Shown here: piece by piece, positions 14,477 through 21,249 of the stretch
Numbering within the stretch: the first letter of the stretch is position 1
Layout of the letters: each line of letters starts with the position of its first letter
Assembly: GCA_030949825.1 (NCBI GenBank)
Contig: JAUZSC010000007.1
Location: forward strand, 62,001 to 126,000
DNA: 64,000 bases
DNA from: Sulfurimonas sp.
GTDB taxonomy: Bacteria; Campylobacterota; Campylobacteria; Campylobacterales; Sulfurimonadaceae
Direction of reading: 5' to 3'
Made by a program: the position numbers and the translations under genes
The notes under the pieces: generated by a model
What the model saw: only the letters and a program-made list of their open reading frames with translations
Database searches by the model: none
What the model was told of the DNA's origin: nothing

Positions 14477-15367
14477 TTAATCTTTAAATTTAATTTGCGT
14501 AATCAACATTTTGAAAAACTCTTTAGTCCATATATCAAGCTCTTGTGCATCTGGAATAAATCTAACTGCGTCTTCTTTAGCCGAGTTAATATCTAAATTT
14601 TCTATTCTATCTCTAAGCAGCGTTAGTATAAAATCTTTACCTATGTTTTTAGGTAATTGTACCCCATCTTCATTTTGAAGTTTACAGCTTTGTTGTAGTC
14701 GCGCGTTTAAATGTATTACATCTAGCTCTATATTTTGTGAAATATACCAGACTAAATCATACCAATCTCTTCCCTTTGGTCTTGAAACCCATTTTCTACA
14801 TAAAACAGCATGCATCTTCCCTGCAAATAGTGAGGACATAGTCATACTATTTATCATAAAAGGTCGTGGTGATAAAAGTAATTTTTTCTCTTTTTGAAAA
14901 TTTAATGGTGGGTTTGTATCTACTTCAAATTTTATTTTAACAATTTTATTTTTTGGAAATCTATCTCTAATATCTTTTGGAGCGTTGATTTCTATCATGT
15001 GCTTAAGAGTATTTCCCTTTAAAAAAGCCGATTGTATGCTAGAGTCTTTATTTTTAACAACTACGTCAACTTCAAATCCAAATGAAGCAAGCATCTCAAC
15101 TACAGAAGATTCATAAACAGCTAAATCAAACGCTTCATCTTTTTGAATTAATGAAAAATCTAAATCTTCAGAAAAGCGGGGTAAATCATATAATATTCGC
15201 AGAGCCGTACCACCATAAAACACTGCTTTATCAAAAAAACCTGCATCTGAGAGTCCAAGCAATACTATCTCTTGTAAAATCTCTCTTAGCGCTTCATAAG
15301 CACTATCTTGTGATGATAAGTCATATTTTTGCAACATTTTTAATATTGCAGGATTTGTATTAGACAT
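14477..15367 (-). CDS. AbiEii-type nucleotidyltransferase toxin
   Basis: AVFYGGTALRILYDLPRFSEDLDFSL (GGT...SEDLDF signature). Confidence 0.8.
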   Translation of the reverse strand: MSNTNPAILKMLQKYDLSSQDSAYEALREILQEIVLLGLSDAGFFDKAVFYGGTALRILYDLPRFSEDLDFSLIQKDEAFDLAVYESSVVEMLASFGFEVDVVVKNKDSSIQSAFLKGNTLKHMIEINAPKDIRDRFPKNKIVKIKFEVDTNPPLNFQKEKKLLLSPRPFMINSMTMSSLFAGKMHAVLCRKWVSRPKGRDWYDLVWYISQNIELDVIHLNARLQQSCKLQNEDGVQLPKNIGKDFILTLLRDRIENLDINSAKEDAVRFIPDAQELDIWTKEFFKMLITQIKFKD

Positions 15368-16025
15368 TTTTCTTCCTCTTTTTAATAATCAATACTAAAT
15401 TTTTTAAGATTTTTGAATTATAAGCTATTGCTATCTCATATAAAAGATTTATATCAAGTTTGAATAACTCATACTCTTCCACTCTAAGATCATAGAGTAG
15501 ATAATCCCATAATTTCTTTTGTGAGAGAACTCCAAGTTTTCTTTCACTTTTAAGCTTATCACAAAGAGCTTTTTCTTTCGTAGCTATCAACCTCCCACCC
15601 AGCTTATCATCATATAACCAGTCAACTCCTATGGAAAAAACTTTAAGAGACACTTTTTTATAGCTAAATCTTCCTATTGGCGTTTCATATTTTTTTTTAA
15701 GTCCTAGGGTCGCTGATGTTACTTCATAAACTCTTTCAGGTATTAAACCATAATAGGATAGGGCGTATTCAAACGATATATAAGAGGGGGCGTATAACAT
15801 ATTTGCAGCGGATATTTTATCAACGGGCATAGTTTGATACCTAGGGTTAAAAAAATATATACCGCGTTTGAGTCTTATAATATCTTCTTTCTTCAGCATC
15901 TGAGATATTTTTTCATTTACGTTAGCAAATGATTTTATTAAAATATCTGATAACATTTCATGAGTGAAAACAGTCGTAGCGATTTTGTTCTTAATATCAT
16001 ATATATCCATAGTGTAATCATACAC
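15360..16025 (-). CDS. AbiEi-like antitoxin/transcriptional regulator
   Basis: IIRLKRGIYFFNPRYQT, SYISFEYALSYYGLIPERVYEVTSAT, IATKEKALCDKL; overlaps the toxin start by 8 bp. Confidence 0.75.
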   Translation of the reverse strand: MYDYTMDIYDIKNKIATTVFTHEMLSDILIKSFANVNEKISQMLKKEDIIRLKRGIYFFNPRYQTMPVDKISAANMLYAPSYISFEYALSYYGLIPERVYEVTSATLGLKKKYETPIGRFSYKKVSLKVFSIGVDWLYDDKLGGRLIATKEKALCDKLKSERKLGVLSQKKLWDYLLYDLRVEEYELFKLDINLLYEIAIAYNSKILKNLVLIIKKRKKNV

Positions 16026-16407: not shown

Positions 16408-16665
16408 ATGCATAGTATTTCCGCTACTGAGATTAAACAAAATTCTATGAGACTTCAAGAAGCTTTACGGGGTGACATACTCATCACAAAAAGAGATAAG
16501 CCTTTTGTAGTTGTAATGGACTATGAAAAATATATAAAAATAAACAGTTCAAATGAAGAATGGACATTTTGGTCAGACAATGAAATAGACAACTTTGGAA
16601 AAATAGCAATAGGACTAAGCAATCATGACTACGATGATGAAGAAGAGGACTATGAAAAATGGTAG
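16408..16665 (+). CDS. Phd/YefM-like antitoxin
   Basis: SATEIKQNSMRLQEALRGDILITKRDKPFVVVMDYEKY; overlaps downstream toxin start. Confidence 0.65.
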   Translation: MHSISATEIKQNSMRLQEALRGDILITKRDKPFVVVMDYEKYIKINSSNEEWTFWSDNEIDNFGKIAIGLSNHDYDDEEEDYEKW

Positions 16666-16980
16666 GACATATATACTACATTAGTATGCCCTACTCTGAC
16701 TTTACAAAAGTCAAGGCAAGACCTGTCCTTGTTTTTCAAATCATTGATAAAAATGATGTTTTAGTTCTACCCCTAACAAGTAACCTAAAACGAGATGGTA
16801 TGCTCATCACAACAGATGACATTCAAGACAGAAGTATTAAAAAAAGATTCTTTCGTGATTGTTCCTAAATTAACAGCTATTGATTCTAGCCTTATCATAG
16901 GAGCGAGATTTATAGCTTCACTTAAAGAAGATAGTTTTATAAAAATTAAAAATGAGCTTTGCTTAAAGTTTAAGTGTTAA
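16659..16980 (+). CDS. PemK/MazF-like toxin with one frameshift
   Basis: ORFs 16659..16868 and 16795..16980 join as ...KARPVLVFQIIDKNDVLVLPLTSN...DDIQDRSIKKDSFVIVPKLTAIDSSLIIGARFIASL if one A is removed from A7 near 16840. Confidence 0.6.
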
Positions 16981-18148: not shown

Positions 18149-19619
18149 GTTTACTTTAGCAAACAATATTACTATATCCATACCTCTCTACACAACTATC
18201 ATCTAAATCTCAATCCCAATAATTTCAACTAATTCATCTCTCATTTTAAAAATATCCTCAACACTAAATTGCCGTAATAAGTCTAATGTTGCTAAATAAC
18301 TTTCTAATCCACTAAGTAAAGCTGGATATGTGAAATCAACACCTCTTTGAATCTGTTTACCACTTAATGATATTAAAAAATCTCGTATTGCCTTTGTATT
18401 ATCACTGTTATCATTTGCAATTTTCCAAATAAGAATACAGGCATTAGAAATGATAAGAAGCCTTTTAAATAGGGCTAGTGGCTCCTTTTGTTGCCACTCT
18501 TCTAAATTAAACCCTGAGGATTTGAGTAGTTTAAAATAGCTTTCTATTTTCCATCTGTAATAATACCACTGCGCTAATGTTTTTGCATCTATCTCTTCAT
18601 CAAAGAGATTAGAAACAAGTAACCACTCTGCTACAACTTCATTTTTATCATTGACTAATCTCTCAACTATAAATCTTAATTTTAGAGTTTTTCCTTTAGT
18701 TCTTTGAAGTTTCCTTTTTCCATTTTTACCTGCTATCATTTTTGTAGCATCTCTTGAGATTGTTATATTGCACTCATTTGCGAATATAGTTACTTTTTTC
18801 TTTTTATAAACTATTTTTTTAACCTCTTTACCAAATGCTAGCTTATCAGCTAATTCTGACTGTTTAATACTTATCGTTTGTTTACTCTTTTCATCATAAT
18901 AATTAACTGTAGAATTCTTCTTACCTCTCAATAAAAAGAGTTGCTTATCTTCATCTAAGCCTCGCATAAAGGCTATGCCATCTGATTCCCTATCAACTAT
19001 ATGAATGATTTTTTTGTCTGTATTTATCGTGTCGCACATATGTTTTGCTCTAACTCTTAGTTCTCCTAAATGAGTTAGATTCATATCTATCTTATCATCA
19101 TATGTTGAGTAAACATTATCTGCTGTTTTAAGGTTATGGTCTAATACTCCTATAGGTTCACCAGTTCTATCACTTGCAGCTATGGCTCCTTGATAGTCAT
19201 AGCCTATTTTCATACATGTATCTTTTCGGTTTTCTGATTTGAGTTCTTTTTTAGAACTATGGTTTTTATAATCTAAATGAGACCAATCTTCTAAGGCTAA
19301 AACATATTTGTCACATTGAGAAACAATCTCTTGTTCTAAATGCTTTTGCAGAGGTTTGTGGAGTTCCTTTATTGTTGCATTTGGATTATTTAAAAATCTC
19401 CAATTGGCTTGAACTTGAGTCATCGGTGGAGTACCAAGCAGTATCTTTAATCCATTTGTAGCTCTCTGTTGAGCATTTATAGCACTCTTTACCATTACAT
19501 CAAATCTTTTTTTAAACGAAGTTCCATATACTCTACTTTTTAGTTCATCCTAGCAATTTTTGAGCCTTTTATTTGTGTAGAGAGCTATGACTATATCATA
19601 ATTAGTTACTAAAGTAAAC
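18149..19619 (-). mobile_element. IS4-family insertion sequence with about 47-bp imperfect terminal inverted repeats
   Basis: 18149..18195 gtttactttag...ctctctacacaa matches the reverse complement of 19573..19619 over equal length, with identical outer 11 and inner 12 bases; encloses a transposase with a YREK signature. Confidence 0.75.
18203..19495 (-). CDS. IS4-family DDE transposase (Tn5/IS50-like)
   Basis: YYYRWKIESYFKLLK fits Y-(2)-R-(3)-E-(6)-K; also IIHIVDRESDGIAFM and ANWRFLNNPNAT. Confidence 0.9.
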   Translation of the reverse strand: MVKSAINAQQRATNGLKILLGTPPMTQVQANWRFLNNPNATIKELHKPLQKHLEQEIVSQCDKYVLALEDWSHLDYKNHSSKKELKSENRKDTCMKIGYDYQGAIAASDRTGEPIGVLDHNLKTADNVYSTYDDKIDMNLTHLGELRVRAKHMCDTINTDKKIIHIVDRESDGIAFMRGLDEDKQLFLLRGKKNSTVNYYDEKSKQTISIKQSELADKLAFGKEVKKIVYKKKKVTIFANECNITISRDATKMIAGKNGKRKLQRTKGKTLKLRFIVERLVNDKNEVVAEWLLVSNLFDEEIDAKTLAQWYYYRWKIESYFKLLKSSGFNLEEWQQKEPLALFKRLLIISNACILIWKIANDNSDNTKAIRDFLISLSGKQIQRGVDFTYPALLSGLESYLATLDLLRQFSVEDIFKMRDELVEIIGIEI

Positions 19620-19672
19620 TATTTTATTTGCTTTTAAAATTTAAATCGAAGAGAAGAAGATTCAGGAAAGTA

Positions 19673-19762
19673 GTGTTTAGATATAATTTCGATTGCGGTT
19701 CTGCTGTAGCTATATGCTCAGCACCAACTGCGCATATAGTTTTAGTAAATCCTAAACCGTAA
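19673..19762 (+). CDS. Candidate 29-aa leader micro-ORF (GTG start)
   Basis: AGGA, 5-nt spacer, GTG; VFRYNFDCGSAVAICSAPTAHIVLVNPKP*. Confidence 0.25.
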   Translation: MFRYNFDCGSAVAICSAPTAHIVLVNPKP

Positions 19763-19777
19763 AGGATAGTGATTTAC
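19745..19777 (+). promoter_or_regulatory. Candidate hairpin sequestering the SD of the 53-aa micro-ORF
   Basis: gtaaatc (19745-19751) pairs with gatttac (19771-19777) just before ATG 19778; TCCT can also pair with the SD AGGA. Confidence 0.4.
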
Positions 19778-19939
19778 ATGTCAAAGATTATAAGACTAAT
19801 CTTAGAAGTCGTTCGCGAAGTACCTAAGTATTTCGCAACGATTAAAACACCGAGAGGGGACAAACCGCTCTCATATGTAAATTATAACATAAAATACTCA
19901 GAAAATTTAAAACTAATTTTACATAAGAATACTTTTTAA
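19778..19939 (+). CDS. Candidate 53-aa small protein
   Basis: SD-like AAAGGA then ATG; MSKIIRLILEVVREVPKYFATIKTPRGDKPLSYVNYNIKYSENLKLILHKNTF*. Confidence 0.35.
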   Translation: MSKIIRLILEVVREVPKYFATIKTPRGDKPLSYVNYNIKYSENLKLILHKNTF

Positions 19940-19978: not shown

Positions 19979-20041
19979 ATGAAAACAATTACACTTAAAG
20001 CAGATGATAAATTCATAAAAAAGCATCGCATGTCTCAGTGA
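19979..20041 (+). pseudogene. Truncated antitoxin-like N-terminus
   Basis: MKTITLKADDKFIKKHRMSQ*; the MKTITLKADDKF start resembles small RelB/RHH-type antitoxins, but the ORF ends after 20 codons. Confidence 0.35.
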
Positions 20042-20049
20042 ATCAGAAC

Positions 20050-20117
20050 TTATATCTATTAATTTACTCGACCAATATATCCATTAAAATTGACATCCAT
20101 TAAATTAATAGATATAA
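20050..20117. repeat. 17-bp perfect inverted repeat upstream of the second ATPase
   Basis: ttatatctattaattta (20050-20066) and taaattaatagatataa (20101-20117), 34-nt spacer. Confidence 0.8.
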
Positions 20118-20136
20118 TTACTCTAAAGGATTTTTA

Positions 20137-21249
20137 ATGTTTAAAACAGGCGCTCCAGTAACGGGAAAAGATTTTATCGATAGAAAAAAACATATTCCTC
20201 TTTTTAACACATATTTAGATCAAAATCAATCTTTTATGATTAAGGCTCCAAGAAGATTTGGTAAGACATCTATTATCAAACATTTGTCCCAAGAAAACCC
20301 AAACTACAAATTTGTGTATATTGATATAAAAAGACTAAGTAGTCTACAATCTCTTGCAAACAATATAATTGACAGTGCTTATAAAATATCTACTATTGAT
20401 AACTTTTTATATAAAGCAAAAAACTCTATGTTCGATTTAGTTAAATCAATTCAAAAGATTAAAATAGATGATATCGCAGAAATCACAATCAGGATGTATG
20501 AAAAAGACACACTTGATGAAATGGAATATTTTTTACATAGCTTAGATGTAATGAATACAATAGCAGCTAAAAAAAATATAAATATTAAATTTGTTTTAGA
20601 TGAGTTTCAAGATATTCTTAAAATAGCTTCAAGTGAGATTTTAGATAAGTCCAGGTCTGTTATACAACACCATAACAATATAACATATATATTTTTAGGA
20701 AGTATAGAAACGATTATGACTAAAATCTTTGAACGTAAAGCATCCCCCTTTTTTCATTTTGCGACCATTGTAGAACTACCTCCACTTGATGTAGACGAAC
20801 TGCATACATACAGCAATAATATATTTAATAAAAAGAATATTAAATGTGACTCACTGAAACATCTTTTAAAATATTTAAATGGTCATCCAGACTATTCCTT
20901 ACAAGTACTGCAAAAGTTATATTTTACTGCTATCGCAAATAACATCAACGAACTAACTGAAAAAATTGTATATGAAACTTTAATAGAAGTAATACTTTCA
21001 AATAAAGCATATCTCGAAGAATTGATTTCAAAAGCTAAACAAAAAAAACATCAGCTTGATGTTTTATATTCTATTGCTAACAACAATAAACTAGAACTCG
21101 ATAGTAAAAGTTTATATAATGTTCATAGTTCGCTTGAAGATATCGGTTTGATTAAAAGGATAAAGACGGGAACATACATCATAAATGATATGTTTTTGAA
21201 AATCTATCTACAACAAAAAGATGAGAATATTCAATTAATTGATTATTGA
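20137..21249 (+). CDS. AAA ATPase (archaeal-ATPase/COG1672-like), intact
   Basis: MIKAPRRFGKTSIIKHL P-loop, IKFVLDEFQDILKIAS Walker B, ITYIFLGSIET, winged-helix-like C-terminus. Confidence 0.75.
   Translation: MFKTGAPVTGKDFIDRKKHIPLFNTYLDQNQSFMIKAPRRFGKTSIIKHLSQENPNYKFVYIDIKRLSSLQSLANNIIDSAYKISTIDNFLYKAKNSMFDLVKSIQKIKIDDIAEITIRMYEKDTLDEMEYFLHSLDVMNTIAAKKNINIKFVLDEFQDILKIASSEILDKSRSVIQHHNNITYIFLGSIETIMTKIFERKASPFFHFATIVELPPLDVDELHTYSNNIFNKKNIKCDSLKHLLKYLNGHPDYSLQVLQKLYFTAIANNINELTEKIVYETLIEVILSNKAYLEELISKAKQKKHQLDVLYSIANNNKLELDSKSLYNVHSSLEDIGLIKRIKTGTYIINDMFLKIYLQQKDENIQLIDY

Follow-up and report, generated by a model that had tools for sequence, protein, structure and literature searches.

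A probable relic of a type I toxin-antitoxin locus in Sulfurimonas, with conserved RNA hairpins and two facing promoters

Introduction

Type I toxins are too short and too divergent for homology searches. In the hok/Sok system the toxin mRNA is locked by 5'-3' pairing, needs 3' processing and is accompanied by an antisense RNA; in TisB/IstR-1, IstR-1 is not encoded convergently over its toxin gene. TisB of E. coli is a short amphipathic helical membrane peptide, and structure in the 5' UTR limits its translation (PMC8309996). Helicobacter pylori has a type I family of its own, aapA/IsoA (PMC6733600, PMC8322730). In the openly readable literature, type I toxins in this phylum have been described solely from Helicobacter.

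Here we describe a locus at positions 19680-19889 of a Sulfurimonas window (the whole stretch of DNA that was analysed, 64,000 nucleotides). We consider it likely to be a type I toxin-antitoxin locus of the chromosome that has decayed and whose family is apparently undescribed; a search of the open literature found nothing on the family. The assignment draws on computed homology, promoter conservation, covarying structure, peptide amphipathicity and decay. An earlier note on this DNA had likened the layout to hok/mok type I toxins or leader-peptide control: the type I class is supported (homologues, covariation, amphipathicity and convergent promoters), but the mok-like coupling is not.

The locus and aapA/IsoA occur in the same phylum and share a short helical peptide, hairpins that sequester the Shine-Dalgarno (SD) sequence during transcription, a full-length mRNA predicted to be closed by a 5'-3' long-distance interaction, a 3' end that duplicates one arm of the 5' hairpin (as seen in L098, an aapA-like locus, and in its fold) and multiple copies, some of them dead "ghosts". 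They differ in that the peptides show no similarity and the toxin of the Sulfurimonas family has 22-24 rather than 30 residues; in that the partner of the 3' end is here the second, not the first, arm of the 5' hairpin; and in the position of the best antisense promoter, which is here 3' of the ORF and overlaps the long-distance arm, whereas that of IsoA3 lies inside the ORF. By analogy, the locus may work like aapA/IsoA; membership of that family is not supported by an AapA-like peptide. With hok/Sok it shares a 5'-3' locked toxin mRNA, predicted 3' processing and an expected antisense RNA, but a conserved overlapping mok-like leader ORF is absent, the toxin (22-24 aa) is shorter than Hok, and the antisense promoter is placed at the 3' end, not against the leader. 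TisB/IstR-1 resembles it in the short amphipathic peptide and the structured 5' UTR; however, IstR-1 is non-convergent whereas the Sulfurimonas candidate antisense promoter is convergent, and searches of Pfam, NCBIfam and PHROGs with the Sulfurimonas peptides matched no family.

Results

Homologues and their distribution

When 149 relatives were searched at the DNA level, related sequence was found in the same-genus genomes G049, which has two tandem copies, and G036; a copy in a further genome of the genus, G151, was found after these. Among 135 genomes of the genus, a covariance model built on the 5' UTR (R1) matched 12 copies, distributed over 9 genomes (E 1e-13 to 1e-24), and a pattern scan of GTDB genomes revealed a 13th copy in GLR69. 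All 13 homologous copies are in Sulfurimonas-type genomes, the hosts according to the GTDB scan being Sulfurimonas MAGs and one single-cell genome, and the copies of G172, like those of G049, are arranged in tandem. When R1 was run on 397 genomes across the phylum, its matches outside the genus were chance only; these weak matches looked like stretches within coding genes. An improved RNA model (R2), run on 399 genomes of the order, recovered a single true distant homologue, G093, from a different Campylobacterota family, which holds two complete copies and one 3' remnant. In the remnant (L087), most of the ORF is deleted and the 3' hairpin and minus-strand promoter are retained. A second match of the region within its own genome (L002) was the promoter of a gene and was set aside as chance. 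No copies were detected in phage, plasmid and IMG/VR collections at the sensitivity used, and an Rfam scan of the region gave no credible match.

A conserved unit between two facing promoters

Alignment of the 13 copies delimited a conserved unit of approximately 210 bp (window 19680-19889) consisting, in order, of a 5' UTR of about 83 nt, the SD sequence AAAGG, an ORF of 22-24 codons and a 3' hairpin. Its signals and ORF in the window are as follows.

19680-19687, plus strand: extended -10 box of the sense promoter, GATATAAT, assigned from conservation (-10 hexamer at 19682-19687)
19761-19765, plus strand: SD sequence AAAGG, 12 nt ahead of the ATG
19778-19939, plus strand: putative toxin ORF, frameshifted; MSKIIRLILEVVREVPKYF is family-like, and residues 20-53 come from reading through the 3' hairpin region
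19787-19792, minus strand: second, weaker antisense -10 candidate, TATAAT, within the ORF at an IsoA-like position
19881-19889, minus strand: candidate antitoxin promoter with extended -10 TGTTATAAT, start predicted at about 19874, directed toward the toxin gene

The sense TATAAT and the G two bases upstream of it are invariant in all 10 copies with complete ends, and there is little conservation upstream of this box. From the conservation of the promoter, the mRNA is predicted to start at about 19694-19695. The 3' limit of the unit is the sequence ATGCAAATTATAnCA, which reads on the minus strand as an extended -10 (TGnTATAAT); in all 10 copies the hexamer is TATAAT or departs from it at one position, and the G at the extended position is invariant. 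Conservation fades outside both -10 boxes, so the unit is bounded by two mutually facing promoters. The earlier note had identified no antisense RNA; what can now be added is a strong candidate promoter for one, the conserved minus-strand extended -10 just 3' of the gene. It is better conserved than the antisense candidate within the ORF, which is perfect in the window and varies at its first base in relatives (AATAAT, GATAAT, AACAAT). No minus-strand ORF is conserved among the copies, and a search for intrinsic terminators on both strands of the window recognised none. An SD sequence of the AAAGG or GAAAGG type occurs at the same location in all intact copies, although its 12-nt distance from the ATG is long and counts against the toxin reading.

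The encoded peptide and its decay

Intact ORFs encode 22-24 residues, for example MSKIVLAILEVIREILRYLNND, MLRIIQLILKVVYEILRYLRDN, MFKIILAILKVVYEILKYLNEDN and MLKIISKIIIKVVREIIYYLLSD, which are predicted to form an amphipathic helix (hydrophobic moment 0.57-0.82, a value reached by 0-22 of 2000 shuffles). Short ORFs (<60 aa) for hydrophobic or amphipathic helical peptides characterise type I toxins, and the family falls within this length, the window copy being a damaged 53-aa version. The frame is open in 9 of the 9 copies compared, and the other two frames contain 1-5 stops. In these 9 copies pN was 0.31 versus a pS of 0.59, a comparison partly confounded by the hairpins because coding and RNA-structure constraints overlap in H3 and H4 (see below). 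The peptide of G093 is different, with 30 residues (MNTQHKWLIKQLVKVLLTLLTVLETIIFNN), and stands behind the same type of RNA.

Relative to G151, the window is missing one base near codons 19-20, and this deletion puts the conserved stop TAA (19843-19845) out of frame, giving the 53-aa read-through. The 53-aa ORF described in the earlier note thus keeps its start at 19778, which is conserved, but its length is a decay artefact, homologues having 22-24 residues. The window copy also has a proline (Pro16) in the helix. With its stop lost and a helix-breaking proline, it probably yields no active toxin, and the sequence points to a copy that is probably dead, a relic of a new type I toxin-antitoxin family. 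The deletion could be a draft-assembly error; the proline would persist regardless. Elsewhere, a frameshift in G036 leads to a stop after codon 7, the start codon of G185 has changed from ATG to ATT, and G196 has lost the ORF and retained the 5' UTR. The toxin has therefore decayed in 4 of 13 copies, by differing lesions. These four independently broken copies resemble natural counterparts of the suppressor lesions selected experimentally in H. pylori, and ATG to ATT, as in G185, is the change made experimentally in aapA3 (PMC6733600).

Conserved hairpins in the predicted mRNA

The RNA of window 19693-19885 folds at -71.3 kcal/mol, compared with -36.4 ± 4.2 kcal/mol for dinucleotide shuffles (z = -8.3), and the fold of the opposite strand is weaker (z = -4.5). 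These values indicate that the structure is not due to chance and is chiefly that of the plus strand. The z values of the folds were -8.3, -6.8 and -9.1, the last being that of G093. The following elements were recognised in the window.

19695-19700, plus strand: mRNA 5' segment GCGGTT, which can pair with AACTGC at 19726-19731 (5' hairpin) or with AACCGT at 19755-19760
19710-19739, plus strand: hairpin H1, CTATATGC (19710-19717)/GCATATAG (19732-19739), with inner CAG/CTG
19745-19777, plus strand: hairpin H2, GTAAATC/GATTTAC, with the SD sequence in the loop and the ATG just 3'
19784-19803, plus strand: hairpin H3 inside the ORF, AAGATTA/TAATCTT, predicted in most copies
19817-19834, plus strand: hairpin H4 inside the ORF, GAAGTAC/GTATTTC, predicted in most copies and confounded with coding constraint
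19852-19872, plus strand: 3' hairpin H5, GAGAGGGG..CGCTCTC
19873-19878, plus strand: 3' arm of the long-distance interaction, ATATGT (xTATGC in relatives), which can pair with GCATAT at 19732-19737

Over 12 copies, H1 is paired in 100% of cells, with one pair changed on both sides, and H2 in 98.6%, with a compensatory U-A/C-G change. Together the two are 99.5% paired, versus 24-39% when the arms are slid, and their covariation score exceeds all 500 shuffles. Folding and covariation, the checks that had been proposed for the hairpin with arms at 19745-19751 and 19771-19777, thus bear it out: both arms are present and conserved in the 12 copies. The SD sequence that this hairpin was said to cover does lie within it, though in the loop and not in the stem. 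The pairing of the 5' hairpin is retained in 12 of 13 copies, AACCGT at 19755-19760 adjoins the SD sequence, and the 5' segment covaries with its partner (GCGGTT/AACCGC in G151 versus ACGGTT/AACCGT in G049). The arms of H3 change together, to AAGAATTA/TAATTCTT in G172b and to AAGGATTA/TAATCCT in GLR69. H5 is found at the same place in every copy whose 3' part was examined except G196, which has lost the ORF and the 3' part.

Refolding and the long-distance interaction

When full-length RNAs were folded, most copies adopted an alternative to H1, in which AACUGY becomes the partner of the 5' GCGGUU and the H1 arm GCAUA, now free, pairs with the 3' UAUGC, closing a ring. This long-distance lock and the nascent hairpin H1 are mutually exclusive, as is known for aapA/IsoA of H. 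pylori and, in a looser form, for hok. Ensemble calculations gave H1 a probability of 0.9-1 within the first 62 nt, and H1 was regained in most copies when the RNA was truncated at the 3' end; of the 10 full-length copies, 5 gave the long-distance helix a probability of at least 0.89 and another 3 gave it 0.23-0.43. Over 10 Sulfurimonas copies, the pairing is kept in 57 of 60 cells with modest covariation (p ~0.05 against shuffles), and its outer pair is seen as G-C, A-U, U-A and U-G. The folds of the window copy, G172b and G185 favour H1 over the long-distance pair, and the fold of the window copy joins its 3' end to the start-codon region instead. A repeated-arm 5'-3' interaction of the aapA type is predicted in most Sulfurimonas copies and in G093, but the window copy disfavours it. 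By computation, then, the mRNA fold occludes the ribosome binding site as in type I systems (H2, the closure and z values of -6.8 to -9.1).

The 3' end of G093, CUCUAUGC, is an exact repeat of its own H1 arm and pairs with it over 8-9 bp in the modelled fold (z = -9.1), which lends the lock independent support. As a positive control, the aapA-like locus L098 of the Helicobacter-type genome G417 was folded by the same procedure and gave the published 5'-3' closure of aapA. A search with AapA1 found matches only in genomes of family f14 (Helicobacter-type) and none in G000 or others of its genus.

Genomic surroundings

An insertion sequence with a DDE transposase gene (18203-19495) precedes the locus, which is situated 85 bp to its right. 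The insertion sequence spans window 18174-19595, its transposase belongs to Pfam DDE_Tnp_1 and its terminal inverted repeats are long and imperfect; a 100-bp segment from its right end is found again, at 98% identity, in contigs C21 and C28, also of this genome, placing the right boundary near 19595. The surroundings further include AbiEii, Phd/YefM and a PemK/MazF-like fragment, and an AAA ATPase gene lies downstream (20137). The AbiEii nucleotidyltransferase toxin (window 14477-16025, minus strand; Pfam E 7e-29) is overlapped upstream by a 221-aa ORF in the place of the AbiEi antitoxin, and the two are likely to be a type IV toxin-antitoxin pair. At 16408-16980 on the plus strand, a Phd/YefM antitoxin gene stands ahead of a PemK/MazF-like ORF that breaks off at 69 aa; because an overlapping frame (16795-16980) continues this ORF, the toxin looks frameshifted. 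A 20-codon stub at 19979-20041 (plus strand), MKTITLKADDKFIKKHRMSQ followed by a stop, resembles the start of a truncated antitoxin gene and has no Pfam match, and a 27-nt inverted repeat with 85% complementarity (20045-20122) stands ahead of the ATPase gene.

In G172, two tandem copies are located upstream of an ATPase resembling that of the window. Each of these copies (L079, 228-4117) is followed by an ORF of 115-120 aa beginning MSRQYTDSSDELCPLGGK, and the ATPase, very similar to the one at 20137, lies 1.5 kb farther on. Control of the downstream ATPase by an attenuator or leader peptide was considered and dropped because the units of relatives precede unrelated genes. An integron attC site or an insertion-sequence end, read from the inverted repeats, was likewise dropped after the ORF and promoters proved conserved.

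Discussion

Proposed mechanism

We infer the following from the conserved parts of the unit. An intact copy would be transcribed into an mRNA of about 195 nt encoding the amphipathic helical peptide of 22-24 aa, which would presumably be toxic by inserting into the inner membrane. On the nascent RNA, H1 would form and H2 would hold the SD region; once transcription reaches the 3' end, most copies would refold, the 5'-terminal hairpin replacing H1 and the freed GCAUA arm pairing with the 3' UAUGC, so that an inert RNA ring encloses H2. The lock would be released when the 3' end is lost; H1 re-forms in the fold, and such 3' processing would activate the mRNA. An antisense RNA from the convergent 3' promoter would cover the mRNA and silence the toxin. 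Somewhat short of an even chance, in our judgement, is the further proposal of a new Sulfurimonas-centred type I family in which UAUGCAAAUUAUA serves both as the 3' arm that closes the mRNA and as the start of the antisense gene.

Alternative explanations

Alternatively, the short ORF could be incidental and the element either a structured non-coding RNA or a set of DNA hairpins belonging to the attachment site of a mobile element. The RNA structure is indeed strong and persists in copies with a dead ORF, and the copies of G151, G165 and GLR69 start directly behind the 3' ends of tyrosine recombinase genes, that of G196 being nearby. However, there is no adjacent integrase at the copies of G172a-c, G185, G186 and G049, the SD sequence and start codon keep a constant place, and the frame is open in all 9 copies, with a conserved amphipathic pattern and pN below pS; we regard this explanation as unlikely. 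Adjacency to integrases in several copies also fits mobile addiction modules, for which it is typical.

Slightly less probable still is a small membrane peptide, secreted or regulatory (bacteriocin-like or a modulator of membrane proteins), that is controlled by RNA structure and has no antisense antitoxin. Amphipathic helices of about 22 residues and low charge occur among such peptides, and the low net charge of the family, only -1 to +3 and less cationic than AapA1, counts against the toxin reading. Against the membrane-peptide alternative, no export or immunity gene is conserved in the neighbourhoods of the copies. The multi-copy, sporadic, mobile-associated and often inactivated occurrence, together with the convergent promoter and the 5'-3' lock, is type I-like (cf. 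PMC6733600).

The earlier note had proposed mok/hok translational coupling, in which translation of a leader opens H2 and releases the ORF at 19778. The leader is the following ORF, rejected here as a functional part.

19673-19762, plus strand: leader ORF with GTG start, 29 codons

It is present in the sequence and terminates inside H2, but its GTG sits 9 nt upstream of the -10 box at 19682-19687 and hence off the predicted mRNA, its start codon occurs in the window copy only, its frame is broken in relatives by 1-nt indels and conservation of the region tracks RNA pairing rather than codons, so the comparison with mok fails and the coupling is very improbable. Of the two peptides proposed for a homology search, the second has homologues, whereas the leader peptide keeps neither start nor frame.

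Significance

A decayed type I toxin-antitoxin locus thus stands as the preferred reading of this unit. If the further proposal on UAUGCAAAUUAUA is also true, the distant relative G093 would suggest a lock that predates the toxins under its control and is shared by several toxins of the Campylobacterota. For aapA/IsoA, the family, which was recognised through its RNA and belongs to free-living sulfur oxidisers, would provide an outgroup with the same type of lock and an unrelated peptide, and with such an outgroup it becomes testable which part is ancestral, the RNA architecture or the toxin.
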